From assembly GCF_001618865.1 (NCBI RefSeq), contig NZ_CP015136.1, positions 7,289,001-7,353,000 of the forward strand: DNA of 64,000 nucleotides, in the 5' to 3' direction. Below are positions 4,246-54,404 of this stretch, piece after piece; position 1 is the first letter of the stretch, and every line of letters starts with the position of its first letter. The stretch is from Luteitalea pratensis (lineage in GTDB: Bacteria; Acidobacteriota; Vicinamibacteria; Vicinamibacterales; Vicinamibacteraceae). Below the pieces are notes generated by a model that was given only the letters and a program-made list of their open reading frames with translations, was not told the DNA's origin and searched no databases. Position numbers and translations under genes: made by a program.

Positions 4246-4299
4246 GTGTGGGCCTCCCTCTGAGGCGCACAGTGTGTGATGACTGGGAAGGAGCCGGCG

Positions 4300-4728
4300 C
4301 TACGGTCGAGAGAGGGCCTTGGCGAGTGCCTTCGCGGCGCGGCAGAGCGCGAGGTCCGCGCTCGAGAAGAACGTCTGGTCGACGCCGGCGCCGAGGGCAA
4401 TCTCGTAGGCGGCCAGATGGAGGCTGTCGTAGGCGCGCAGACGGTATCGCTCTGCAAGGTCGCCTGCCCCAGCGCACAGTGCGGGCGTGACGTCGAGGTG
4501 GATGAAGGCGGGCCACTCTGTGTCGAGCAGTCGCCTGCCTCCAGCGAGACCGCGGGGCGACAGCAGACGCTCGCGACGACGACGCGCAAGTGCGGCCCTC
4601 ACCTCCGTGTACGTCAGCGTCAGCGTCGCGACGACGTCGGCAGACTCCACGCGATCGAGCACCTCCACGCTGCCTGGCTCGTCCACGTACAGCTTCAGCA
4701 GGCTGCTCGTGCCGAGATAGCGCGTCAT
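4300..4728 (-). CDS. VapC-like PIN-domain toxin, first catalytic Asp replaced
   Basis: A 142-residue PIN-domain protein, the usual length of VapC ribonuclease toxins. The opening reads MTRYLGTSSLLKLYV where VapC proteins normally have LDTS: the first metal-binding Asp is Gly6 (GGC instead of GAC). The other acidic residues are present: Glu in YTEVRAAL, Asp in AYDSLHLA and Asp in SSADLALC. It overlaps its antitoxin gene by 4 bases (ATGA), the normal coupling of such pairs. Loss of the first Asp predicts an inactive or weak nuclease, kept perhaps as a DNA-binding partner of the antitoxin or as a decaying gene. Confidence 0.82.
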   Translation of the reverse strand: MTRYLGTSSLLKLYVDEPGSVEVLDRVESADVVATLTLTYTEVRAALARRRRERLLSPRGLAGGRRLLDTEWPAFIHLDVTPALCAGAGDLAERYRLRAYDSLHLAAYEIALGAGVDQTFFSSADLALCRAAKALAKALSRP

Positions 4729-4997
4729 CCGCGATCCTCGATCACGGCGTCCGACACCCTCGCGCCGCCCTCGAGCCGAACTCGCGAGCGACTGCCGGCT
4801 GGCTTCCCGCCATTCCAGTGCGCCCGCCCTTCCCGCACCATCTTCCAGGCCCAGTCCATGTCGGCCCTGGCGTTCACGGGTGAAATCGTCGCCACCTCGC
4901 GTCCGCGGTCAGTCACCACAAGGGTCATGCCCTCGCGCACGCGTTGCAAGTGCAGACTCAGTCTCGCCTTCAAGTCCCGGATTCCCACCTTCTCCAT
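4725..4997 (-). CDS. Phd/YefM-type antitoxin (VapB partner)
   Basis: A 90-residue antitoxin. The N-terminal part has the Phd/YefM DNA-binding pattern (VGIRDLKARLSLHLQRVREG, then VVTDRGREVA). The C-terminal half is loosely charged, as expected of a toxin-neutralising tail. The ATG at 4997 is chosen over a GTG six bases upstream because GAGGAG lies five bases before it. The gene is first in the pair and shares 4 bases with the toxin. An inverted repeat at 5038-5067, just upstream, is a likely autoregulatory operator. Confidence 0.82.
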   Translation of the reverse strand: MEKVGIRDLKARLSLHLQRVREGMTLVVTDRGREVATISPVNARADMDWAWKMVREGRAHWNGGKPAGSRSRVRLEGGARVSDAVIEDRG

Positions 4998-5260: not shown

Positions 5261-5690
5261 TCACATCGATTGCCACTTCACTTGCGGTTCGACCATGAGC
5301 GCCCAGCCGATGGTCACCCGCTCTGGATTGTTGTATTCCCTGGCCTGCAACCAAAGTCGAGCGTCGCCCGGAAGGCGAAGGTAGATGCCCCTCGCCACAC
5401 TGAGACTGCGCCCGGCATTCCGTTCCCAGCGGGCCAGGAATGCCAGGTCCTGCATGGCCTCGAACTCCGGCAGGCCGGAGCGGAGTCGTCGCGACCACCG
5501 CTCAAGATGAACGGCGGCTGCCAAGGACGCGCTCTTGTCTGAGTTACATCGCTCGTCGGCGAACACGAAGTTGTCGAGGCTGTCATCCGGGTAACGCGAC
5601 CAGGGGGATGAAGTGATCGACATGTCCGTTGGTCACATCAGCTACGCGACGGTCGCAATAGAAGCATCGACTGCAGTTGGCGTGGCAGCA
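5261..5690 (-). pseudogene. HNH endonuclease remnant, frameshifted and 5'-truncated
   Basis: Two minus-strand frames join into one HNH-nuclease sequence. The upstream frame (to about 5605) reads CSRCFYCDRRV...GHVDHFIP and the downstream frame continues as WSRYPDDSLDNFVFADERCN. The break coincides with a run of five C residues (5603-5607 on the plus strand as G); removing one C restores IPWSRYPDD exactly. Upstream of about 5690 the homologous N-terminus is missing and the sequence instead resembles a transporter on the other strand. This is either a decayed gene or, for the frameshift alone, a homopolymer sequencing error; the missing N-terminus argues for decay. Confidence 0.72.
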
Positions 5691-5805
5691 GGTGCCATCT
5701 GAGCGCTTGGCCCTGCTGGGCAACGGATCGGTGCCGTGGTACGAGTTGCTCGAGGCCTGGACCGTGCCGGTCGTCGGATCGAGGCTGGCGGTGGAGTTGC
5801 TGTCG

Positions 5806-6008
5806 TGGAGACAGCCTCGGTGTTCGACAGCGCGGGCGTGTTCGTGGTCGCGTGCTTCGGGCTGTTCACGGCGATCGGAGGCCCGTTGAGCGCGTGGGTC
5901 GGGTTGTGCACCGGTTTCGTGGTCTGGATCGCCGGTGCCACGATTGGCTGGCCGGCCCCGTACGTCACCGCGCTCGCGGCATCGGTGATGGCCTATCTCG
6001 TGCAGTAG
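5806..6008 (+). pseudogene. C-terminal remnant of a sodium:solute symporter
   Basis: The frame ending at the TAG at 6006-6008 encodes two hydrophobic segments joined by FGLFTAIGGPLSAW and ending PYVTALAASVMAYLVQ. This resembles the last two helices of SSS-family permeases. Nothing upstream in this frame continues the family (which is normally 450-550 residues), and the fragment directly abuts the HNH remnant on the opposite strand. It is best read as a leftover from a rearrangement. Confidence 0.55.
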
Positions 6009-6071
6009 TAGCGCAGCCACAGCAGCCATCGTGTCGGCCGTCTGACCGGGAGAAGCTGAGGACCCTGCGCG

Positions 6072-6320
6072 TCAGCTGCGTGTTGCCGGACTTCCGGCGG
6101 TCAACTCGGGAAAGTCCACGTTCGGGCGTCCGGCTGCGGGCGGGATGGCCATCCCTGCGGCGCGGGCTGCCTCGAGCCAAAGGTCGATGGCCGTCTGCGC
6201 CGACTCGACGGCCTCGACCGGCGTGCTTCCGTGCGCCATGCACCCTAGAAGTTCAGGCACTCGGACGACGAAAACAGCGTCTTCAGCACTCCAGAAGACG
6301 ATCAGTTCGTACCTGTGCAT
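6072..6320 (-). CDS. hicB: HicB-type antitoxin
   Basis: An 82-residue protein beginning MHRYELIVFWSAEDAVFVV with the HicB pattern: a short beta-rich partial RNase-H fold, VPELLGCMAHGSTPVEAVE and a helix AQTAIDLWLEAAR. The downstream ATG at 6320 is chosen over one 42 bases upstream because it gives the standard HicB opening and places the start one base after the stop of hicA. HicB binds and neutralises HicA. There is no C-terminal ribbon-helix-helix extension, so it is the short form. Confidence 0.82.
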   Translation of the reverse strand: MHRYELIVFWSAEDAVFVVRVPELLGCMAHGSTPVEAVESAQTAIDLWLEAARAAGMAIPPAAGRPNVDFPELTAGSPATRS

Positions 6321-8299: not shown

Positions 8300-8537
8300 G
8301 CATATGAGTATGGCTCATTTCGTGCCTCTCGTCGAGCGGGAACGAGGGCGGTCCAATCGGGACGAACGCAGAACGCTGGATGCCGAACGCCGAGCAGACC
8401 GTCAACTGCATCGTCAGCGTCAACGAGGCACGAACCGCGCCGTTTGAACACCGTGGACTGGCGCAGGGAACCTGGCGTCGCGGATCGCCGATGTGGCAGG
8501 AACTGCCGCGGCGGAGGGGGATGGGGGTGGCAAAAAG

Positions 8538-8611
8538 GCATGCCTCATGCCTCATGCCTCATGCCTAACGCTTGACGCTTGACGCTTGAGGCTTGAGGCT
8601 TGAGGCTTGAC
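8538..8611. repeat. Heptamer arrays GCATGCCTCAT- and GCTTGAG-type
   Basis: About four CATGCCT units are followed by three ACGCTTG and four GGCTTGA units in direct succession. One array appears to mutate stepwise into the next while keeping the 7-bp period. The rest of the 526-base gap 8300-8825 holds a short GAACGCC array (about 8368-8395) and no gene I can support. Confidence 0.85.
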
Positions 8612-8825
8612 GCGTCGGGGCCTGACGGCGAACACACGGCGACATGAGGATCGAGGCGGCGGCACGCCGGCGCGCAGGCCGCGGAGAGGCCACCACACCG
8701 ACCGGGCGCCGAAGCTGAGGCACGCGCCAAATGTCTTCGGACTCAACGTGTCCGGGCGTCCAGACGCCATCCGGCAACCAACGCCCTGGCCGGACGCTCG
8801 ACGGAGTGGCTACCTGGACGGAGGC

Positions 8826-10631
8826 CTACTCGCGGTCGCCGCGGTCCTTGCGCACCATGACGCGGCGGCCGCGCACCTTGGCGTTGCGCAACGAAATCAT
8901 GATCCGCGTGGCGAGTGCCTCGGGGACGTCCACGAGCGACGACTCCTCGCCGATGCGGATGGCGCCGATGACGCCGCTGTCGACGTCGGCCTCGCCCGCG
9001 ATCGCGCCGACGAGATCGGCCGGCCGCACACCCGCTGCCTTGCCGATATTGATGTGCAGCACGGCGCGGGCACCACCGGCGCCCCGTGGCCCGCCGGCGC
9101 GCGACGGACGACTCGGCGGACCTTCCTTGCCCTCACGAGCGCGACGGGGTCGTTCCTCATCATCCCGGCCGCGGGCAGGGCGTTCGGAGTACGCCGGCCG
9201 ACGCTCGGCGGCGGCCATGGCTTCGTCGAGGGACGGTCCTGCCGCCGCCTCTCCGGCCTCGCGCTTCGACCCACCCTTGGCCTTCCCCTTCGTTGTCGTG
9301 GTGCCAGCCGGATCGTCGTGCAGCAGGCGGATCGCCGCCGCGGCGACGTCGAGCACGTCGAACTCCTGCGCGAGACGATCGACAACGGCACGGGCCTGCT
9401 CGAGGCCGCCTTCGACGATCTGCGCGCGGACGGCGGCAAGCGTCGTATCCAGCCGACGTGCCTGCAGGTCCGCTTCGGTCGGGATCGGGAGGATCTCGAT
9501 CTTCGACCGGACGGCTCCCTCGATCGACCGCAGTTGGCGATGCTGTCGCGGATCGACCAGGGAGATGGCCATGCCCTCGCGACCGGCGCGGCCGGTGCGG
9601 CCGATGCGGTGCACGTACACCTCGGGCGTCATCGGCAGGTCGTAGTTGACGACGTGGGAGACGTGCTCGATGTCGAGTCCACGCGCCGCGACATCGGTGG
9701 CGACGAGCACGTCCGCCTGCCCGGTGCGGAACATCTGCATCACGCGATCGCGCGCCTTCTGCTCCATGCCGCCATGCAGCGCCTTGGCGCCGTAGCCGTG
9801 GGCTGCGAGCGTGTCCGTGAGCTCGTCGACCTCGGTGCGCGTCCGGCAGAACACGATCGCCGACGAGGGCGTCTCGACGTCCAGCACGCGCCCGAGCGCC
9901 GCGGTCTTCTGCTGGCGCGGCACCAGGTAGGCCACCTGGCGGATGCGTGGCAGCTTGCCCGCCGCACGCTTCTCCTTGGCGATCGCCACCCGCACCGGAT
10001 CGGTCAGGTGCGTGGACGCGATGGACTCCAGCCGTGGCGCCATCGTCGCCGCAAAGAGCGCCGTCTGTCGCTCGTCCGGGGCATTGGCCAGGATGCTCTC
10101 GATGTCCTCGGCAAAACCCATGTCGATCATCTCGTCGGCCTCGTCCAGCACCACGATCCGCAGCGCGCGCAGATCGAGTGTGTGACGGCGGAGGTGATCG
10201 AGCGCCCGTCCAGGCGTGGCGACGACGATCGACACGCCGCGGCGCAGGGCGCGGATCTGCACGTCCATCGGTGCGCCGCCGTAGAGCGGAGCCACCGCGA
10301 GGTCCGTACCGCGGGCGTACTTGTGCAGTGCCTCGGCGACCTGCATGGCCAGTTCGCGCGTCGGCACCAGCACGAGACCGCGAGGGGCGAGGCTCTTGGC
10401 GCCCTTGCGCGACAGCAGTTCAATCATCGGCAGGGCGAAGGCGGCGGTCTTGCCGGTGCCCGTGCCAGCCATGCCGAGGACGTCCTTGCCGTCGAGCAGC
10501 ACCGGAATCGCTTCGCGCTGGATGGGGGTGGGCTCCTCGTAGCCGAGCGCGGACACGGCAGAGACGAGGGCATCGGACAACCCGAGGGAGGAGAAGCCGG
10601 TGGGGGCTTCGGAGGAGGGATCGGTACTCAC
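8826..10631 (-). CDS. deaD: DEAD-box ATP-dependent RNA helicase, DeaD/CsdA type
   Basis: A 601-residue DEAD-box helicase. Visible motifs are the Q motif (ending Gln38), Walker A AGTGTGKT (55-62), PTRELA (90-95), DEAD (163-166), AAT in place of the usual SAT (194-196) and HRIGRTGR (341-348). After a charged linker (about 440-520, rich in Arg/Glu/Gly) the last 75 residues form a DbpA-type RNA-binding domain (VLHINIGKAAGVRPADLVGAI). The architecture matches DeaD/CsdA, which remodels structured RNA during ribosome assembly and cold growth. It is monocistronic with a divergent neighbour 83 bases away. Confidence 0.92.
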   Translation of the reverse strand: MSTDPSSEAPTGFSSLGLSDALVSAVSALGYEEPTPIQREAIPVLLDGKDVLGMAGTGTGKTAAFALPMIELLSRKGAKSLAPRGLVLVPTRELAMQVAEALHKYARGTDLAVAPLYGGAPMDVQIRALRRGVSIVVATPGRALDHLRRHTLDLRALRIVVLDEADEMIDMGFAEDIESILANAPDERQTALFAATMAPRLESIASTHLTDPVRVAIAKEKRAAGKLPRIRQVAYLVPRQQKTAALGRVLDVETPSSAIVFCRTRTEVDELTDTLAAHGYGAKALHGGMEQKARDRVMQMFRTGQADVLVATDVAARGLDIEHVSHVVNYDLPMTPEVYVHRIGRTGRAGREGMAISLVDPRQHRQLRSIEGAVRSKIEILPIPTEADLQARRLDTTLAAVRAQIVEGGLEQARAVVDRLAQEFDVLDVAAAAIRLLHDDPAGTTTTKGKAKGGSKREAGEAAAGPSLDEAMAAAERRPAYSERPARGRDDEERPRRAREGKEGPPSRPSRAGGPRGAGGARAVLHINIGKAAGVRPADLVGAIAGEADVDSGVIGAIRIGEESSLVDVPEALATRIMISLRNAKVRGRRVMVRKDRGDRE

Positions 10632-10714
10632 GAGAAGATCGTAGCAGTTCGAGAGAAGTGGGGCCGACGCCCGGTGTTTGACGAGTGCGCCGGGAGGCTG
10701 TCACCCTCGGCGTC

Positions 10715-11233
10715 ATGGCTCCGTTGACCGACACCGTGCAGGCATTGATCGCGGCTGATCCACAGGGCGGGTGGCTGCGCCGTATGTTCGAGCAGCTCGA
10801 GGAGGTGCACTGGGGCGCCCTTCGTACGCCTGGCACGATCACGGCGGGCCCGGTCGTTCGCGAGGTCCCGCTGGTCGATGGCGTGGTGACGATGCCGTGC
10901 GTCGTGGAGACCGATACGTTGTTACTTGCCCTCGAGGATGCTCGTTCGACGCCCCTCGCCACCGGGACCGCCGCCGATCCGAAGCGGCACCAGGTGTCCA
11001 GGGTGATCGAGGCTCTCCGCGTGCTCGCCAGGGCCAGGACCACCGATCGTGCCCACGATGCCGACCCCCTTTTCGGCGTCATCGTCGTCGGCGGGTCCGA
11101 CGTGCCAGAGCCGCACCGCACGACGATTCTCGAAGGGTTGCCGCACATCCAGCGCGAACAGGCCGAGGACCTCTACGCGAATTATTGGGGGCGGCTCGGT
11201 CCCGACGCGTTCGAGGCGCTCAGGATCGCTTAG
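10715..11233 (+). CDS. Hypothetical soluble protein
   Basis: I do not recognise this 172-residue protein. It begins MAPLTDTVQALIAADPQGGW, is predicted soluble and mixed alpha/beta, and has no signal peptide or cysteine-rich motif. A GTG at 10685 would add ten residues; the ATG is preferred as the commoner start codon, though neither has a well-spaced ribosome binding site. Base composition and third-position GC resemble the neighbours. It ends in a 14-base convergent overlap with the next gene. Confidence 0.62.
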   Translation: MAPLTDTVQALIAADPQGGWLRRMFEQLEEVHWGALRTPGTITAGPVVREVPLVDGVVTMPCVVETDTLLLALEDARSTPLATGTAADPKRHQVSRVIEALRVLARARTTDRAHDADPLFGVIVVGGSDVPEPHRTTILEGLPHIQREQAEDLYANYWGRLGPDAFEALRIA

Positions 11234-14444: not shown

Positions 14445-15356
14445 ATGCGATTCAGTCAATGCCTGCTCGCCGCGGCCGTGGCATCCGCACTTGTGGGTCT
14501 CGGCGCCGTCACCCCAGAGATACCCGTGTCAGCCGCTCGCCTCGCGCAAGCCCCCTTGTACAAGAACCCGATTGCACTACAGCTCTACAGCTTCCGGGAG
14601 AGCTTCAAGACTACCGGCGTGCCCGCGACGCTTGCCAAGGTCAAGGCGATGGGGTTCACGCACGTCGAGTTGGCCGGTACCTATGGTCTGACCCGCGAAC
14701 AGTTCAAGGCGGAACTCGAAAAGGCCGGCCTCACCGCGATCTCGACGCACGTCGACATCAAGCTGCTCGCGAGCCCTGCCGACTCCGGCAAGCTGCTCGA
14801 CGATGCGAAGTTCTACGGGGTGAAGTACATCGGCTGTGCCTGGTTCCCGCATGAGGGGACCTTCGACGAGGCCGATGCCGACGCAGCCATCAAGGCGTTC
14901 AACGCCGCGGGCAAGAACGCCGCGGCCGCCGGGCTGCAGTTCTTCTATCACGCGCACGGATACGAGTTCGCCCCCGGTGCGGCCAAGGGCACGCTGTTCG
15001 ACAAGGTCCTGACACAGACCGACCCCAAAACCGTGAAGTTCGAGCTCGACATCTTCTGGGCGTATCACGGCGGCGCCGATCCGGTGGCGCTCCTCAAGGC
15101 ACATCCGGACCGTTTCGTGCTGACCCACCTGAAGGACATGAAGCCCGGCACCAAGAAGGACAACACCGGCCACGCGCCCGATGACTCGAGCGTCGCCCTT
15201 GGTTCCGGCGAGGTGCCCGTCAAGGGAGTGGTCGAGGCGGCGCGCTCGACTGCCGTGCAGTGGCACATCATCGAAGAGGAGTCGCCCGAGCCGGACAAGA
15301 ACGTTCCGGCTGGACTCGCCTACCTCAAGTCGCTCGCGGGCGGCCCCAAGAGCTGA
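14445..15356 (+). CDS. Secreted sugar phosphate isomerase/epimerase-like TIM barrel
   Basis: A 303-residue protein with a signal peptide (residues 1-29) followed by an AP-endonuclease-2/xylose-isomerase-like TIM barrel. It opens IALQLYSFRESF and continues GFTHVELAGTYGLT. Metal-ligand candidates follow the family order: Glu in HVELAG, His in YHAHGYEF, Glu/Asp in KFELDIFW and His in VLTHLKDMK, with Glu in IIEEESP near the end. Secreted members of this family are common in Acidobacteriota and Planctomycetes, but substrates are mostly unknown. AAGGAG upstream decides the start. Confidence 0.85.
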   Translation: MRFSQCLLAAAVASALVGLGAVTPEIPVSAARLAQAPLYKNPIALQLYSFRESFKTTGVPATLAKVKAMGFTHVELAGTYGLTREQFKAELEKAGLTAISTHVDIKLLASPADSGKLLDDAKFYGVKYIGCAWFPHEGTFDEADADAAIKAFNAAGKNAAAAGLQFFYHAHGYEFAPGAAKGTLFDKVLTQTDPKTVKFELDIFWAYHGGADPVALLKAHPDRFVLTHLKDMKPGTKKDNTGHAPDDSSVALGSGEVPVKGVVEAARSTAVQWHIIEEESPEPDKNVPAGLAYLKSLAGGPKS

Positions 15357-15371
15357 CCCTCGGCATGTCCG

Positions 15372-15403
15372 GGCACGGCCCGCTCGGAGAGCGGGCCCTA
15401 CCT
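15372..15403. repeat. GTAGGG palindrome
   Basis: A near-perfect copy of the GGCCCGCTC-GGA-GAGCGGGCC stem followed by CTACC, lying between the isomerase-like and GNAT genes. It ends four bases before the chosen GNAT start codon. A longer GNAT frame would read through it as GERALPS. Confidence 0.82.
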
Positions 15404-15406
15404 TCG

Positions 15407-15967
15407 ATGCAGTTACCCCTCCGCCTGCACGAGCTGCTGCCACTCCGCACACCCAGGCTGCGACTCGTCGAGCTCGACCTCTCCCATCTCTCCCCGCTGG
15501 CGGCGATGCTGGCCGACCCGGTCGTGATGCGGTACTTCCCGCGCGTGATGACGAAGGCCGAGTCCGAGCAGTGGCTCCGCCGTACCATCGACCGCTATCG
15601 TCGGCACGGCACGGGGCTGCTCGCCGTCCTGCAAGACCGCGACGGCACCACCGCGTTTCTCGGCGACTGCGGCCTGCAGGTCCGGACCTTCGCCGGCCGG
15701 GCGCATCTCGAACTGGGATACCACTTCACGCGTGCGGCGTGGGGACGAGGCTATGCGACAGAGGCGGCGCAGGCCTGCGTCACGCTGGCCTTGCGACACC
15801 TCGCGGTCTCGGAAGTGATCGCGCTGATTCGCCCGGAGAACGTCCCCTCCATCGGCGTTGCCCGGCGGATCGGCATGTCGCGGGCCGGTTGTGTGCTCCA
15901 TTCGGGTCTCGTGCACGACGTCTGGCGGCTGACGCGAGAGGCCTGCGAAGCACTCGCCCTACAATAG
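15407..15967 (+). CDS. GNAT family N-acetyltransferase (RimJ-like)
   Basis: A 186-residue acetyltransferase of the RimJ/RimL type. It opens TPRLRLVELDLSHL and shows ELGYHFTRAAWGRGYATEAA (acetyl-CoA-binding motif A) and RPENVPSIGVARRIGM. The ATG at 15407 is chosen; an upstream ATG at 15365 would require translating the palindromic repeat. It sits 12 bases before the UPF0182 gene and may be cotranscribed with it. The acetyl acceptor is unknown. Confidence 0.87.
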   Translation: MQLPLRLHELLPLRTPRLRLVELDLSHLSPLAAMLADPVVMRYFPRVMTKAESEQWLRRTIDRYRRHGTGLLAVLQDRDGTTAFLGDCGLQVRTFAGRAHLELGYHFTRAAWGRGYATEAAQACVTLALRHLAVSEVIALIRPENVPSIGVARRIGMSRAGCVLHSGLVHDVWRLTREACEALALQ

Positions 15968-15979
15968 GGCGGTCCCGAC

Positions 15980-48217: not shown

Positions 48218-49519
48218 TTACGCAGTGGCCGGCAGCCCCTTCTCGAGAATCCGCTCCATCGTCGTCGCGAACGTATCCACTTCCTCCAGCGTCGTGTAGA
48301 CGTTGGGCGTCACGCGCATGCCTTCGAACTCCGCATGCTTGATCGGCGTGACGATGATGCGGTGCTGCGCGTAGAGGTGGGCTGCGAGGCGCGCGGGGTC
48401 GAGGCCCGGCGTGGACACGTTGCCTATCGCGCCGCTCTGGGCCGGGTCGAAGCTGGTGAGGATCCTGGCCTTGGGGTGGTCGGCAAGGCGGCGCATCCAG
48501 CGATCTCGCAGGTAGCGCAACCGTGCGATCTTGCGCTCGCCACCGATCGTGTGGTGATAGACGCGCGCTTCGGCGATGGCGTTGTGGTTCGCGGCCGGGT
48601 GGGTCCCGATCTCCTCGAACTTGCGGATGTCGCCCGCCTTGCTCCCGGCTGCGGGCGTGAGCGGCCACAGATCGGGAATCCGCTCGCGTCGCACGTAGAG
48701 GAAGCCGGTCCCGATCGGGGCGAGCAGCCACTTGTGCAGGCTCGTGCCGTAGTAGTCGCAGCCCAGGTCACGGATCGCGAACGGGAAGTGCCCGAACGCG
48801 TGCGCCCCGTCGACGATGGTCTGGATGCCGCGAACACGGGCAATTCTGCAGATGTCGGTCACCGGGAAGATTTGCCCGGTGAGGTTGGTGATGTGGCAGA
48901 AGTGCAGGACCTTCGTTCGCGGACCCAGCGCGCGTTCGAGGCGCTGCGTCAGATCCGCCATCGAGGGCGGTGGCACCGGGAACGAGATCTTCGTCAGCGT
49001 GATGCCATCACGACGAGCACGCTGCTCCCACGTGTCGAGCATGCGCCCGTAGTCCTGGGTTGTGGTGACGACCTCGTCGCCCGCCTTCAGGTCGATGCCG
49101 AGCTGCGCGATCTGGAGGGCCTCGCTTGCGTTTCGGGTGATTGCGAGTTCTTCGACATCGCAGCCTGCATCTTGTGCCAGGCCGGCTCGCACCCGCTCCA
49201 GGTTGGGTTCCTGCTCCTGCCACATGTTGAAGACGGGCGCCTGGTTGGCGTGGTCGAGATACCGCTTGAAGGCCTCGTGGACGACGCGGGGGCTGGGACA
49301 GACGCCGCCGTTGTTGAGGTTGATGACGGTGCGGTCAAGAGTGAAGCCCAGCTGGACTTCGCGCCAGAAATCTTCGTCGGCGGCGATGTCGGCAGCGGAC
49401 CGGCCACGCACCTGTTCGGCGGCCCTGGCCATCAGCGCCAGGCCGTTGCTGTTGAGCGCGGCCGCTACGAGCGATCCCGAAGATCCGAGGCGGGAAAGAA
49501 AAGCACGTCGAGAGGTCAT
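48218..49519 (-). CDS. Tat-exported class V aminotransferase (isopenicillin-N-epimerase-like)
   Basis: A 433-residue PLP enzyme of the class V/CefD-like group. It starts MTSRRAFLSRLGSSG, a twin-arginine leader, so a periplasmic location is likely, unusual for PLP enzymes. Landmarks are FTLDRTVINLNNGGVCPSP, TRNASEALQIAQLGID, VDGAHAFGHFPF and the PLP-lysine in YGTSLHKWLLAPIG. The substrate is unknown; family members include epimerases and cysteine desulfurase relatives. The ATG at 49519 has AGGAG seven bases upstream. Its first 13 bases lie in the duplicated segment that begins the PEP-CTERM locus. Confidence 0.85.
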   Translation of the reverse strand: MTSRRAFLSRLGSSGSLVAAALNSNGLALMARAAEQVRGRSAADIAADEDFWREVQLGFTLDRTVINLNNGGVCPSPRVVHEAFKRYLDHANQAPVFNMWQEQEPNLERVRAGLAQDAGCDVEELAITRNASEALQIAQLGIDLKAGDEVVTTTQDYGRMLDTWEQRARRDGITLTKISFPVPPPSMADLTQRLERALGPRTKVLHFCHITNLTGQIFPVTDICRIARVRGIQTIVDGAHAFGHFPFAIRDLGCDYYGTSLHKWLLAPIGTGFLYVRRERIPDLWPLTPAAGSKAGDIRKFEEIGTHPAANHNAIAEARVYHHTIGGERKIARLRYLRDRWMRRLADHPKARILTSFDPAQSGAIGNVSTPGLDPARLAAHLYAQHRIIVTPIKHAEFEGMRVTPNVYTTLEEVDTFATTMERILEKGLPATA

Positions 49520-49676
49520 CGGCGACTCCTGCAGGGGTAGCCGGAGCGTACCACGGCGCAACTGTCCTTTGCGAAGCCGGTTTTAAGTCGCCAAGACGAA
49601 TGACCTTTTGGGCTGACCACTTGCTGGCTACAAACGCAAACTACTGTAAATAAAACACTTGCGTGCCGCAACCGGA

Positions 49677-49692
49677 TGGCATGTCCCGTGCT
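49677..49692 (+). promoter_or_regulatory. Sigma-54 (-24/-12) promoter of the first PEP-CTERM gene
   Basis: TGGCATGTCCCGTGCT matches the sigma-54 consensus TGGCAY-N5-TTGCW in spacing and in the GG and GC dinucleotides, with one mismatch in the -12 box. It lies 93 bases upstream of the ATG. An AT-rich motif (CTGTAAATAAAACACTTGCG, 49644-49663) shared with copy 2 lies just upstream and could be an activator site. Confidence 0.72.
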
Positions 49693-49784
49693 TCACTTAC
49701 CAGGCATACGCGTCCGTGCCTCGGGGGGAGGCTTGATGGAACCGCTTCGGATCCGTCAGACGCGTTACGGGAGGAAAAGGATCC

Positions 49785-50438
49785 ATGAAAAACTTCTTTG
49801 GAACAGGCGCATTGGTGCTGGCGCTCGGAGCGGGCGGGCTGACGACGAGTGCGGAAGCTGCTCTCATCGTCACGCCCGGTGTTTCCAACATCGGTACCGA
49901 CAATGTCGTGTCGGCGGCGTGTACTGGGGGAGCGAACGGTCCGTCCCTCACCATCACTGGGTGCTTGAATACGGATCACAGTTTCCTGGTGAATTTCACC
50001 AGCGACGAGAACATCTTCTTTGACGCGGGCGGTCAGGCGAGGGTGGTCGGCAGCGATGGCGGGTTCAGCCAACTGACAATTGGCACAGTCGCACCTGCGA
50101 CGTTTGACAAGATCGTCCTCAATATCGACGTCATCAACGGGCTGAGTGGGTCAGTCTACTTCGTGGGCGTTCCCGGTGGGTCGACGCTGCCCACGACCTT
50201 CGCGCTCGGCAATGGTGCGAATTTCTTCACCATCACCGGCAGCGCAGGGGAGGGATTCTCGTCGATGAGCTTCTTCGTCTCAAGTGGACTGGACGTGGTC
50301 TCCGATGTGCAGCAGGTTCGCTTGGGACCCACGGTGTGCACCACGGACTGCGACCCGGGCGATGTCCCGGAGCCGACGTCGATGTTGCTCCTGGGTCTTG
50401 GGTTGCTCGGCGCGGGCATCGCTCGCCGCCGCAAGTAG
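49785..50438 (+). CDS. PEP-CTERM sorting-domain protein
   Basis: A 217-residue exported protein. Signal peptide residues 1-26 (GAGGLTTSAEA) are followed by a beta-rich passenger with no family I recognise. The C-terminus is a complete PEP-CTERM tag: DVPEPTSMLLLGLGLLGAGI then ARRRK. Such proteins are processed by an exosortase at the inner membrane and exported with exopolysaccharide. No exosortase gene is in this window. GGGAGG lies upstream of the ATG and a sigma-54 promoter precedes it. Confidence 0.88.
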   Translation: MKNFFGTGALVLALGAGGLTTSAEAALIVTPGVSNIGTDNVVSAACTGGANGPSLTITGCLNTDHSFLVNFTSDENIFFDAGGQARVVGSDGGFSQLTIGTVAPATFDKIVLNIDVINGLSGSVYFVGVPGGSTLPTTFALGNGANFFTITGSAGEGFSSMSFFVSSGLDVVSDVQQVRLGPTVCTTDCDPGDVPEPTSMLLLGLGLLGAGIARRRK

Positions 50439-50466
50439 CTGCCCCCAGCCTCTCCTCGAATCACGC

Positions 50467-50495
50467 AACGCCGGCGCCCTGTGGGCGCCGGCGTT
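50467..50495 (+). terminator. Intrinsic terminator, PEP-CTERM gene 1
   Basis: AACGCCGGCGCCC and GGGCGCCGGCGTT form a perfect 13-bp stem with a TGT loop, followed by GTAGTTTCG. It lies 29 bases after the stop codon. Confidence 0.78.
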
Positions 50496-50801
50496 GTAGT
50501 TTCGCGGCGTCACGATTCACCCGATTGCTATCCGACTGATGGAGATCGAATGGGCCCAGTTGGGAGAACGGCGGCGGCTGGGGTGACAATACCGTCGAGC
50601 CGGGCGCCACCGTGCCACCGCCTCCACTGCCGTCGAGAGGTCATCGGCGACTCCTGCGGGGGGGAAGCCCGAGCGTACCACCGCACAACTTTCCATTGCA
50701 AAGCCGGCTTAAGTCGCCAAGGCGAGTGACTTTTCAGCAGGCCACCTGCTGCCGACAAAACAAAACGACTGCAAACAAAGCACTTGCGTCCAGCTATCTT
50801 A

Positions 50802-50817
50802 TGGCATGTGGCGTGCT
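50802..50817 (+). promoter_or_regulatory. Sigma-54 promoter of the second PEP-CTERM gene
   Basis: TGGCATGTGGCGTGCT, the same -24/-12 arrangement as copy 1, 93 bases before the ATG. The upstream motif CTGCAAACAAAGCACTTGCG (50769-50788) corresponds to that of copy 1. Confidence 0.72.
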
Positions 50818-50909
50818 TAGATTATCAGGCAGTGCGTCCGTGCCTCGGGGGAGGCCTGACAGAACCGCTCTTGGGTCCGTCGGACGCGTTACGGGAGGAC
50901 ATAGACTTT

Positions 50910-51569
50910 ATGAAGAACGCTAACTTCACCGCCGGCGCCTTAGCGCTGGCATTGTCGATCGGTGGCCTGGCCACCACCGCGAACGCGGCAACAATTTACA
51001 TTGGCGATTGCTACACTGGCGCTTGCGGCACTCTCACGGGCTCGGTGAGGGTGGATTTGACCCAGTGGTCCGCCGACCAGACGCGTCTGGTCATTACCAA
51101 CAATACGAACGGCTTCATCGACGAGCTGGGCCTGTTCTACACGGGCGGCTTGCCGGCCAACACGATCATCGCAGCGTTCAGTGCGTTGACCGGAACGGTG
51201 GCGCAGCCGAGTCTCAGCTTTGCCCCGACTCAGAACGACAACAGTGGTCAGGCGCTGAACGTCGGTTTCGACTATCAGAACAGTAATCAGGGCGGCGGCC
51301 GATTCGAGGCTGGTGAGGCCGTACAGTTCAACCTCGACTCGGCAACGGCCAACATCAACATCTTAGCCAACCTGTTCACCAACCTGGGCTTCGCGCACAT
51401 TCAGGCGATCGCTCCGGGCGGCGGCAGTGCCAAGATCACGGCCTGCGTCGCTCCGGACGCCAACTGCGACAACATCCCAGACACTCCCGACGTGCCCGAG
51501 CCTACCGTGATGGCTCTCCTCGGCCTCGGCCTGTTCAGTGCGGGCTTGGCCCGCCGCCGCAAACAGTAA
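50910..51569 (+). CDS. PEP-CTERM sorting-domain protein
   Basis: A 219-residue exported protein. The leader (MKNANFTAGALALALSIGGL) resembles that of the preceding PEP-CTERM protein, and the tail DVPEPTVMALLGLGLFSAGL-ARRRKQ is a full sorting signal. The middle, with CYTGACGTLTGSVRVDL and a Gln/Asn-rich stretch, shows no similarity to its neighbour. GGGAGG precedes the ATG by 12 bases, a wide spacing. It is probably exosortase-processed and associated with extracellular matrix. Confidence 0.87.
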   Translation: MKNANFTAGALALALSIGGLATTANAATIYIGDCYTGACGTLTGSVRVDLTQWSADQTRLVITNNTNGFIDELGLFYTGGLPANTIIAAFSALTGTVAQPSLSFAPTQNDNSGQALNVGFDYQNSNQGGGRFEAGEAVQFNLDSATANINILANLFTNLGFAHIQAIAPGGGSAKITACVAPDANCDNIPDTPDVPEPTVMALLGLGLFSAGLARRRKQ

Positions 51570-51600
51570 GCGTTCTCTCGCCTCGGGGCGAGGGTACCAG

Positions 51601-51640
51601 CGCCGGCTCTCCTTCCAGAGAGCCGGCGTTTCTGTTTCTC
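51601..51640 (+). terminator. Intrinsic terminator, PEP-CTERM gene 2
   Basis: CGCCGGCTCTC and GAGAGCCGGCG form an 11-bp stem around a 6-base loop, followed by TTTCTGTTTCTC. This is the best T-rich terminator in the window. Confidence 0.8.
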
Positions 51641-51684
51641 GGCGTCACGATTCACGCGGTTGCTACCCGGGGCACGAAGACGAC

Positions 51685-52572
51685 ATGCTGGAGGAGAGGC
51701 GTACACGGTCCTTGGTCAATTGTTCGCTCTTGTTCACGCTGCTCCTGATGGCAGCCATGCCGCTGCCGGCCAGTGGTCAAAACGTCGCCCTGGCCAGAGC
51801 AGGGGCAAGGGCGTCGGCTTCCAGCGTGTACAGCGGCGGCCGTTTCTACCCGCCCGCCGGCGCGATTGATGGCGATCGGACGGGCACCAACTGGGAGAAT
51901 GGTGGCGTCTGGGCCGACGACACCGTCGACCAGTTCCCAGACTGGCTGCGGGTCGACTTCGCGGGGGCGAGGACGATCGACAGGATCATCGTAACGACCG
52001 TGCAGGACGACTACGCCAACCCTGTGGACCCCGGCGCCGGCCTGACGTTCGCCCTGTTCGGGCTCTCTGACTTCTCGCTGCAGTACTGGGACGGCGCGCA
52101 GTGGCAGGAGGTTCCTGGCGGCGCAATCGCGGGCAATCGCCAGGTGCTGCGTGAGGTGAACTTCAGACCGCTGACCACCACGAGCATCGGTGTCCTGGTG
52201 ACGGGCGCCCTCGCCGGGTACAGCCGCATCGTGGAAATCGAGGCGTACGAGCCGGGCGGCACCGCGCCAGCGCCTCCACCGCCGGCCACCCCTGCCGCAT
52301 CGCCAAGCGTGCGGCTGGCATGGGATCCGAATCCAGAAGCCGACCTCGCCGGGTACGTTCTGGTCTGGGGCCCGTCGCCGGGCGTCTACACGCAGTCGTG
52401 GACGCTGGACGCGACAGCGACCACGCACGAAGTGACAAGCCTGGCGTGGGGCTCACGCTACTACTTCGCCATCCGGGCATTCAACATTGCAGGGGTTCAG
52501 TCGCTCCAATCCGACGAGGTCACCGTGCTGACCGACCCTGCACCTGCGTACATGCGCGTGGACGTGCCCTGA
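51685..52572 (+). CDS. Secreted discoidin (F5/8 type C) and fibronectin-III protein
   Basis: A 295-residue exported protein with a leader at about residues 9-32 (LFTLLLMAAMPLPASG). Residues about 33-190 resemble a discoidin-like carbohydrate-binding domain (GAIDGDRTGTNWENGGVWAD, WLRVDFAGARTIDRIIVTT). A Pro/Ala linker leads to a fibronectin type III domain (VRLAWDPNPEADLAGYVLVW, SRYYFAIRAFN). No PEP-CTERM tag is present although all neighbours have one. Binding to polysaccharide of the matrix is plausible. Confidence 0.8.
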   Translation: MLEERRTRSLVNCSLLFTLLLMAAMPLPASGQNVALARAGARASASSVYSGGRFYPPAGAIDGDRTGTNWENGGVWADDTVDQFPDWLRVDFAGARTIDRIIVTTVQDDYANPVDPGAGLTFALFGLSDFSLQYWDGAQWQEVPGGAIAGNRQVLREVNFRPLTTTSIGVLVTGALAGYSRIVEIEAYEPGGTAPAPPPPATPAASPSVRLAWDPNPEADLAGYVLVWGPSPGVYTQSWTLDATATTHEVTSLAWGSRYYFAIRAFNIAGVQSLQSDEVTVLTDPAPAYMRVDVP

Positions 52573-52701: not shown

Positions 52702-52717
52702 TGGCACGAGGGTTGCC
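52702..52717 (+). promoter_or_regulatory. Consensus sigma-54 promoter of the third PEP-CTERM gene
   Basis: TGGCACGAGGGTTGCC fits the sigma-54 consensus in every conserved position of both boxes. It lies 79 bases before the ATG at 52796. Confidence 0.8.
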
Positions 52718-52795
52718 ATTGACAAGGGCAACTCGGCATCGACCCCAGACGATGCCCTTCATGCGGGTCCGATTGGGCCAGGGACTGTTCTCACA

Positions 52796-53494
52796 ATGCG
52801 TAAGACGTTTTCCATTCTCTCGCTCTCGGCCCTCTGGGCGCTCTCGCCCGTCTCGGCCAACGCCGCCGTCATCGTTGACGGGGTCGGCGACACCTTCACC
52901 GTCAATTTCAACGGCAGCGACGACAACATCAACACCAGCGTGGATCCGTGGCTGACGTCGAGCGCGCTGTTCCTCGTACAGGCCTACGGGGCCAACTCGC
53001 TCACGCTGAAGGTCACCGTCACCAACACGACGCAGTCACCCTATGTTTCGCGCGTGACCGGCATGGGGTTCGACCTCGATCCGGCAGCAATCGGCGCCGA
53101 CGTCACCGGCATCTTCACGACCGACGTGATCGGTGGCGACTTCCAGCCGCACGGCATCAACGATAACTTCGATGTCTGCGTGAAGAACGGCCAGCCTAAC
53201 AATTGCCACGCCAGCAACGGTGGTGTGGCGCAGGGCACCTCCGGCGACTTCTACCTGACGCTGAACTTCGGCTCGTCGATCGTGCCGGGCGTGAGCTTCA
53301 GCAACTTCGCGGTCCGCTACCAGGCGATCGTGTACCCGCAGGGCCAGAGCGGCTCCGGTTCGGGCGTCGGCCGCGGCTGCGTCGACGACGAAGCCGATTG
53401 CGGCAGCGACTCCGATGTGCCCGAGCCGACGTCCATGGCGCTCCTCGGTATCGGCATGCTCGGCGCCGGGGTGGCGGCTCGCCGCAAGCGGTAA
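52796..53494 (+). CDS. PEP-CTERM sorting-domain protein
   Basis: A 232-residue exported protein: leader residues 1-22 (LSPVSANAA), a beta-sandwich-like passenger and the tail DVPEPTSMALLGIGMLGAGV-AARRKR. The passenger has two Cys pairs (DVCVKNGQPNNCHA; GCVDDEADCG). It is a paralogue of the next gene. The ATG at 52796 is used because the sigma-54 promoter lies at 52702 and any longer frame would start within it. Confidence 0.87.
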   Translation: MRKTFSILSLSALWALSPVSANAAVIVDGVGDTFTVNFNGSDDNINTSVDPWLTSSALFLVQAYGANSLTLKVTVTNTTQSPYVSRVTGMGFDLDPAAIGADVTGIFTTDVIGGDFQPHGINDNFDVCVKNGQPNNCHASNGGVAQGTSGDFYLTLNFGSSIVPGVSFSNFAVRYQAIVYPQGQSGSGSGVGRGCVDDEADCGSDSDVPEPTSMALLGIGMLGAGVAARRKR

Positions 53495-53687: not shown

Positions 53688-54404
53688 ATGCATCTGCCGA
53701 GACAGCTGTCCCTCGTCGTCCCCATTGTCCTGATGTGCGCCGCATCCGCCACCGGCGCGCCGATCATGTACGCGGTGGGCGATTCTTTCACGGTCGGCCT
53801 GAACGGCAGCACCGGCAACATCACCGTCGGCGCCGATCCGTTCCTGTCGGCGCAGGCCAGGTTCACGGTCACACAGTGGGAAGGCACGTCGATCGTGTTC
53901 AGCGTCGACATCGCCAACACCTCGAGCACCGCGCCTGACTACCACTCGCGCATCACGGCGCTCGGCTTCAACGTCGACGGCGACGCCATCCCCGGAACGT
54001 CGGTGAGCGGCGCGTTCTCGAAGGTCGTCCTCGACGATACGGTGCACGCGCACGGCCTCGCCTCCGCGCTTGGCGGGCCCACCGATGTCTGCTTGAAGAA
54101 CGGCAGCAGCTCGGGGTGTGAATCCGGGCAGGGCGGCATCGCCGAAGGACAATCGGGACTGGCAACGCTGACGCTGAAATTCGTCGCGCTGCCGGCGTCG
54201 GTTGCGCTCACGGACTTCTTCGTCCGCTACCAGGGCGTCAGCACCCCGGCTGCGCAGGGCCTGGCCGGTGTCGGCATCGCAACCTGCGTGGATGCCGACT
54301 GCGACGACGAATCGGGGCAAACCGTTCCGGAGCCGACGGTCCTGGCCTTGTTCGGGGCCGGGCTCCTCGGCGCGTCGTACCTGCGTCGTCGACGACAGCG
54401 GTAG
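53688..54404 (+). CDS. PEP-CTERM sorting-domain protein, paralogue of the preceding gene
   Basis: A 238-residue exported protein with leader residues 1-24 and the tail TVPEPTVLALFGAGLLGASY-LRRRRQR. It aligns throughout with the preceding product: GDSFTVGLNGSTGNITVGAD, DVCLKNGSSSGCESG, DFFVRYQGV and the second Cys pair CVDADCDD. AGGAG lies before the ATG. No good -24/-12 promoter is present in the 193-base gap (GTGCCGGCCGATTGCC at about 53615 is a poor match), so it may depend on read-through from its neighbour. Confidence 0.86.
   Translation: MHLPRQLSLVVPIVLMCAASATGAPIMYAVGDSFTVGLNGSTGNITVGADPFLSAQARFTVTQWEGTSIVFSVDIANTSSTAPDYHSRITALGFNVDGDAIPGTSVSGAFSKVVLDDTVHAHGLASALGGPTDVCLKNGSSSGCESGQGGIAEGQSGLATLTLKFVALPASVALTDFFVRYQGVSTPAAQGLAGVGIATCVDADCDDESGQTVPEPTVLALFGAGLLGASYLRRRRQR

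Follow-up and report, generated by a model that had tools for sequence, protein, structure and literature searches.

Two neighbouring PEP-CTERM genes of Luteitalea pratensis lie in tandem copies whose ends are alike and whose coding middles have no detectable relation to each other. The genes, which start at 49785 (P1) and 50910 (P2), belong to a 64,000-nucleotide (nt) stretch (the window, G000:C1:7289001-7353000 within the 7.48 Mb single-contig genome G000), and each encodes a leader, a passenger (the cargo) and a PEP-CTERM sorting tag. We suggest that they are ordinary genes of the PEP-CTERM/exosortase system and that their ends probably act as slots, the cargo between them being replaced via recombination. 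A preliminary description of this DNA had proposed a modular display cassette in which the cargo is exchanged while promoter and sorting ends are kept. For the promoter and the flanks this is still the best reading, but retention of the tag and the word "display", which derives from the PEP-CTERM tag, both overstate the evidence.

A tandem duplication with apparently unrelated middles

The two copies of about 1 kb reported earlier are real. They are direct repeats (49506-50534 and 50631-51669) that are 82% identical up to the start codon, and they contain the following features.

49506-49519, minus strand: first 14 nt of the aminotransferase gene (48218-49519, minus strand), left edge of the duplicated unit
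49506-49537 and 50631-50662: direct repeat D7, 97% identical
49641-49664, plus strand: AT-rich upstream motif of copy 1, with TGTAAA, a possible activator site
49677-49692, plus strand: sigma-54-like promoter of copy 1 (TGGCATGTCCCGTGCT)
49718-49784, plus strand: presumed 5' leader RNA of copy 1, with a GCCTC-loop-GAGGC stem
49785-50438, plus strand: PEP-CTERM protein P1, 217 amino acids (leader, cargo 1, tag; PF07589, E 1.3e-8)
49860-50359, plus strand: cargo 1, family C1 (all-beta model, carbohydrate-binding-module-like)
50487-50534, plus strand: 3' arm of the copy 1 terminator stem and sequence beyond, 85% identical to 51622-51669 (repeat D4)
50533-50632, plus strand: decayed F5/8-fn3 remnant, the duplication junction
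50631-50644, minus strand: duplicated aminotransferase 5' fragment of copy 2 (repeat D7)
50766-50789, plus strand: AT-rich upstream motif of copy 2, with TGCAAA
50802-50817, plus strand: sigma-54-like promoter of copy 2 (TGGCATGTGGCGTGCT)
50910-51569, plus strand: PEP-CTERM protein P2, 219 amino acids (leader, cargo 2, tag; PF07589, E 1.2e-6)
50991-51487, plus strand: cargo 2, family C2
51622-51669, plus strand: 3' arm of the copy 2 terminator stem and sequence beyond (repeat D4)
51685-52572, plus strand: intact gene for an F5/8 type C and fn3 protein, its first part (to about 52284) within the duplicated unit

The aminotransferase 5' end and the intergenic region agree between the copies in 138 of 169 ungapped columns (81.7%), and the stretch from the sigma-54 site to the start codon in 87 of 106 (82.1%). 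The aminotransferase fragment is thus shared, as had been stated, but just 14 nt of it are coding and the remainder is intergenic; the AT-rich motif does lie in both copies, inside the 82% identical region. Identity amounts to 48/71 (67.6%) in the leader DNA, 57/79 (72.2%) in the tag DNA and 67/92 (72.8%) from the stop codon to the end of homology. The similarity past the terminator was also recovered, over the 48 nt of repeat D4. Between the copies, the linker 50533-50632 consists of two blocks of the downstream F5/8-fn3 gene, 51863-51929 (80%) and 52248-52284 (89%), and abuts the second aminotransferase fragment directly. This remnant shows that a larger unit, about 1.65 kb long (50631-52284 in the second copy), was duplicated in tandem; judging from the two blocks, its first copy of the F5/8-fn3 gene has lost two pieces after the duplication.

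In DNA, the cargos are no more alike than chance. A gap-tolerant alignment with 577 columns, 420 of them ungapped, has 279 identities (66.4%) versus 67.0 ± 2.1% for a codon-shuffled cargo 2 control, in agreement with the dissimilarity of the passengers noted before. The local DNA score of 12.5 was equalled by 96/300 shuffles, whereas 281 ± 15 would be expected at 80% identity and 99 ± 20 at 60%. Hence divergence does not explain the cargo middles, which look replaced rather than diverged. At the protein level, the cargo score has a z of 1.9 when the linker before the tag is omitted (equalled by 51/1000 shuffles; 23/1000 with the linker kept), BLASTP of P1 against P2 gave no match at E 10, and no relation was seen by sequence or by a profile comparison of the two families, which returned a probability of 1.2% (4 versus 2 sequences).

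We compared the locus across five genomes of the genus (G000-G004, of which G001 and G002 are drafts) and searched more widely for relatives of the cargos. Cargo 1 has relatives in G002 (50% identity), Roseomonas (54%), Elioraea, Methylibium, a Pyrinomonadaceae metagenome-assembled genome and Paludisphaera; a tree of this cargo did not separate its closeness to G002 from that to Roseomonas. Cargo 2 has a single relative, in G001 (48%), and searches for it matched 2/162 genomes of the order and, with a profile, 2/396 of the phylum, both times the window genome and G001. Since each cargo has 48-54% identical relatives outside the genome, the two families seem older than the duplication. A model of P1 built with 7 sequences is all-beta (mean predicted local distance difference test score, pLDDT, 74.4). 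Among solved structures it ranks a Vip1 protein first (Z 8.3) and carbohydrate-binding modules second to tenth (Z 7.6-8.2), with the caveat that a Z under 8 possibly reflects just a common arrangement; a viral structure library gave poor superpositions only, and sequence searches of the PDB found nothing below E 0.49. These matches are a weak hint that cargo 1 would suit a matrix-binding protein. P2, folded alone from a single sequence, reached a pLDDT of 35.

Ends and cargo across the genus

Searches for the tag gave 113 matches; 10 from genomes G005-G006 were left out, and from the 103 in G000-G004 we parsed 95 genes (6 lacked a start and 2 were not fetched). Upstream DNA and cargo were compared for all 95, partial and fold-back genes included, and 81 genes (3240 pairs) entered the pair rankings. 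Ten pairs have similar upstream DNA (E < 1e-5). Eight of them also have related cargo (E 9.3e-13 or lower), and the two that do not, P1/P2 and P3/G001:C88, both belong to this locus. P3 is the next PEP-CTERM gene in the window, and a further neighbouring PEP-CTERM gene is referred to as P4.

52702-52717, plus strand: sigma-54-like promoter of the neighbouring end set B (TGGCACGAGGGTTGCC)
52796-53494, plus strand: PEP-CTERM protein P3 (cistern family), whose type of promoter, leader and 3' flank bears the cargo 2 relative in G001

By their upstream DNA, the ends at the locus fall into type A (P1, P2, G001:C339, G003:6351296) and type B (P3, G001:C88, G003:6351858). The cargo of G001:C88 matches that of P2 (z 44), while the upstream DNA, leader and 3' flank of these two genes show no similarity (z –0.8, –0.5 and –1.7). 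Against P3, the same gene scores high in upstream DNA (z 16.7), leader (z 6.4) and 3' flank (z 5.5) but not in cargo (z 1.0). In the pair rankings for upstream DNA, leader and 3' flank against G001:C88, P3 takes positions 8, 28 and 11, and P2 positions 2823, 2148 and 3010. By these sequence comparisons, the G001 relative of cargo 2 sits in the other end set, the P3 type, of the same locus, and ends and cargo are uncoupled between genomes, which supports exchange. The four genes with upstream DNA of type A (z 9 to 47 to one another) bear cargo 1, cargo 2 or a third cargo, found in G003 (upstream z 9.2 to P1 and 11.9 to P2), and the three with upstream DNA of type B (mutual z 8.5 to 16.7) bear the cistern cargo, cargo 2 or none. 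The last case is an "empty" PEP-CTERM frame of G003 (L025 8736-8939, 67 amino acids), in which a leader, a short linker and a tag follow type B upstream DNA (z 8.5 and 12.6) with no cargo.

Genes flanking the locus in G000, G001, G003 and G004 share 80-86% DNA identity. In G001, type A upstream DNA adjoins the aminotransferase gene (z 38.8 to P1), and promoter and leader are present there before the contig folds back. G002 carries cargo 1 at this locus without the aminotransferase, and G004 has the aminotransferase with no tag or sigma-54-like site within 1.5 kb. Among the best 30 of 91 genomes with a matching aminotransferase, a tag occurs within 1.5 kb of the start side in three (the window, G003 and G059). 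Upstream identity is 80% over 242 nt between P1 and P2, and 65% over 77 nt between P1 and the slot of G003; the duplication therefore seems younger than the split from G003.

The leader and the tag are less distinctive of the pair than had been thought. The leaders of P1 and P2 resemble each other as proteins (rank 4 of the 3240 pairs) but not clearly so as DNA (rank 363). The tag is present in both genes but is not special to them: protein scores are 100 for P1-P2, 107 for P1-P3 and 95 for P2-P3 (33, 40 and 39 in DNA), and P1-P3 is the first of the 3240 tag pairs, with P1/P2 at rank 66 in tag DNA. Given a leader not clearly shared in DNA and a tag common to the locus, the left breakpoint would fall between the ATG and about codon 26 and the right one between the tag and the terminator. 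The right breakpoint may thus lie past the open reading frame (ORF), which makes exchange of the whole ORF a live rival. In P1 to P4 (window 50331-50363, 51441-51491, 53375-53416 and 54279-54323), the tag is preceded by a linker that contains two Cys as well as acidic residues. The G001:C88 gene and the empty G003 frame have such a linker too, even though the cargos differ.

Weighing cargo exchange against its alternatives

In the scheme that we favour, a unit of about 1.65 kb, from aminotransferase codon 5 into the F5/8-fn3 gene (about 52284), was duplicated in tandem to give two PEP-CTERM genes. An unrelated passenger would then have taken the place of the coding middle in one copy, and the F5/8-fn3 copy that had become redundant would have decayed. 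Promoter, 5' leader RNA and 3' flank, and probably the signal peptide as well, would form a standing slot at the locus, and cargo would move between slots by recombination among PEP-CTERM genes, perhaps including genes from other bacteria. The duplication, the lack of a detectable relation between the cargos and the mismatch of ends and cargo between genomes are evident from sequence; from these patterns we infer both the recombination and its direction.

Another pair of paralogues in the same genome bears on where such recombination breaks. The two genes lie 6.2 kb apart (4208-4855 and 10398-11045 of L031, G000:C1:4080000-4096000). Windows over about 300 nt upstream of them are 95-100% identical, barring a 38-nt indel and a few changes by the start codon, and 85 nt of tag and 3' flank are identical, with 87% identity in the leader and 75% in the cargo. 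Divergence at silent sites (dS) is 0.89 in the cargo versus 0.05 in the tag, and the step at the tag is sharp. The pattern would fit either ends that were converted or a related cargo that was imported. The pair supports recombination breakpoints at cargo borders, not exchange for an unrelated cargo. Around it (features at 4208-4855, 5527-6174, 8440-9567, 9768-10202, 10398-11045 and 14736-15977) we found two related terminase-like genes, one of them with a Pfam match, part of an integrase (PF00589) and a direct repeat of 60 nt with 90% identity; ARAGORN found no tRNA in L031. Mobile DNA may carry PEP-CTERM genes.

Several observations weigh against exchange between fixed ends. Related cargo is also missing from 14 pairs whose upstream similarity is weaker (E 1e-5 to 1e-2), 4 of them in the locus and 10 elsewhere. 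G001 and G002 are drafts: in G001, 82 nt separate a contig end from the start of the sigma-54 site that belongs to the cargo 2 relative, and the end of contig G001:C339 (L029 3480-3925) folds back so that both strands bear the type A promoter, which is probably due to misassembly. The ends in G002 fit no one type (upstream z 7.5 to P1, 5.8 to P3, 3.7 to P2 and –0.4 to G003 type A), and the leader of the empty frame in G003 is unlike type B leaders (ranks 2372 and 2564 of 3240). Over 72 nt of its leader RNA (49718-49789), P1 matches G001 at 93%, versus 82% between P1 and P2 from promoter to start; P2 and G001 agree at 81% over 59 nt, and nearer the aminotransferase P1 and G001 at only 75%. These values misfit a simple clock: either constraint on this RNA has been kept in P1 and G001 but has relaxed in P2, or the duplication predates the split from G001. 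The exact words that tags have in common average 8.5 nt in G000, which makes them thin as arms for homologous recombination; in each of three genomes they were slightly longer than in 20 synonymous shuffles (8.5 versus 8.1 in G000), which is not convincing. The phage-like genes beside the second pair are mosaic too, and no donor was identified. Finally, with the P1/P2 leader alike in protein only and the tag common to the locus, exchange of the whole ORF fits almost as well.

That last alternative, in which a complete foreign PEP-CTERM frame (leader, cargo and tag) came in after the duplication, differs from cargo exchange in its breakpoints only. The leader and tag DNA ranks of P1/P2 and the likeness of all tags of the locus speak for it, as do the C1 relatives in Roseomonas, Elioraea, Methylibium, the Pyrinomonadaceae assembly and Paludisphaera, which come with their own leader and tag. 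The high rank of the leader protein, for P1/P2 as for P3/G001:C88 (28 of 3240), argues the other way, and the step in the second pair falls at the tag start, inside the ORF. On balance we hold replacement of the whole gene to be rather unlikely, though well ahead of the explanations that follow. One of these requires no exchange: P1 and P2 would be unrelated neighbours, the ends of one having been copied over the other by gene conversion. The ends of the second pair, more alike at silent sites than its cargos, are consistent with such copying. What lies at the junction, an F5/8-fn3 remnant and an aminotransferase fragment, is best accounted for by duplication of a unit that spans the gene, and we find gene conversion improbable at this locus. 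Extremely fast divergence of both cargos from the one present at duplication is hardly credible: cargo does evolve fast (41-66% cargo identity in six cross-species pairs with related upstream DNA at E < 1e-5, two of them over 48-50 residues, versus the 80-86% of flanking genes), and the protein scores of cargos 1 and 2 are slightly above shuffles (z 1.9-2.7), yet no more than for P2/P4 (z 2.1), and those six pairs stay alignable (E 9.3e-13 or lower), while P1 and P2 fall far short of the DNA scores expected even at 60% identity, and each has its own relatives beyond this genome.

Control, sorting and relation to known systems

In each copy, the sigma-54-like site has two mismatches and its start lies 108 nt upstream of the ATG; this is the equal spacing of 93 given previously, counted from the last base of the site. 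Such sites (up to two mismatches) precede 31 of the 76 PEP-CTERM genes of the genus surveyed, versus 1.5 ± 1.1 in 30 shuffles. The TGTAAA of copy 1, the complement of TTTACA, stands about 26 nt upstream of the promoter, in the place taken by TGCAAA in copy 2. A role for the AT-rich motif is suggested by motif 1 (TTTACA) in the text available from Haft 2006 (PMC1569441), which places it 32-92 nt upstream of the promoter, farther than in our copies, and reports the promoter motif for Proteobacteria only. Hairpins are conserved in the presumed 5' leader RNA (window 49718-49784, 50842-50909 and 52735-52756) and were seen in relatives. Type A has the GCCTC-loop-GAGGC stem and a second stem, and type B a GGCATCG-loop-CGATGCC stem and a conserved CCCCAGA stretch. 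An Rfam search gave one chance-level match and none above the gathering score.

Both tags exceed the cut-offs of TIGR02595 (P1 27.1 and P2 25.3 bits; cut-off 16) and PF07589 (35 and 28.8; cut-off 20.7), and both leaders look like signal peptides in their sequence features, with Lys, a hydrophobic stretch and an AxA-type end. The genome encodes an exosortase (C1:4017163-4017849, 130.2 bits versus a cut-off of 105.55) and a PrsR response regulator (C1:7375707-7377035, 554.6 bits versus 502.6); a second exosortase-like match (7379232-7379948, 92.7 bits) is below the cut-off. Sorting by exosortase (EpsH) and control by sigma-54 and PrsK-PrsR form the published PEP-CTERM scheme (Haft 2006, PMC1569441). 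Under this scheme, both proteins would be switched on by sigma-54 and a PrsR-type activator, exported by means of the signal peptide and, at the tag, handled by the exosortase for sorting.

The genes resemble that system, as far as the available part of its description goes, in the putative signal peptide, variable middle, 24-amino-acid tag and –24/–12 promoters, in their many fast-changing paralogues with duplication and loss, and in the exosortase and PrsR of G000. However, the same part describes rapid evolution with duplication and loss, and does not describe cargo being swapped while the ends are kept (PMC1569441). A mapped RpoN-dependent promoter, that of pepA of Aquincola tertiaricarbonis, a gene involved in floc formation, has the elements TGGCAC and CTGCTT, both of which also occur in the type A promoter of G001; pepA differs in being a single gene, with no duplicate or exchange described in the portion of the paper at hand (PMC9850573). 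P1 (27.1 bits) and P2 (28) score below the PepA family cut-off of 80. The neighbours P3 (168.9 bits, computed, like its Pfam score, with a start at 52781, 5 codons too far upstream) and P4 (158) exceed the cut-off of 60 for the cistern family (NF033947), whereas P1 (19.1) and P2 (22.1) are not members.

Constant ends, a variable middle and recombination are also the hallmarks of cassette exchange in pilins and surface antigens, which draws on silent, promoterless copies and allows rapid switching. Here, unlike in those cassettes, each copy has a promoter-like site, at the same distance, and a full, intact frame, and the differences are between species. Among the papers listed by literature searches, none deals with cargo exchange among PEP-CTERM genes, as judged by title or start of abstract. 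The parts of the locus are of a known kind; within the literature searched, the preserved record of a likely exchange of cargo between fixed ends is new. As the locus has kept the duplication together with its junction scar and with two end sets whose cargo is interchanged, exchange can be distinguished from fast divergence.

More broadly, and more tentatively, PEP-CTERM loci might be slots whose fixed ends set timing and amount, the mature protein being routinely exchanged between slots and with incoming DNA, and empty slots such as that of G003 being intermediates; we regard this as possible rather than probable. If so, a lineage would renew its surface or matrix proteins with control unchanged, and the similar mixing in relatives suggests such a route by which bacteria could renew secreted surface-type proteins. 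If general, exchange would help to explain why many PEP-CTERM proteins share their ends only, and would suggest a natural frame of promoter, leader and tag for displaying new proteins.

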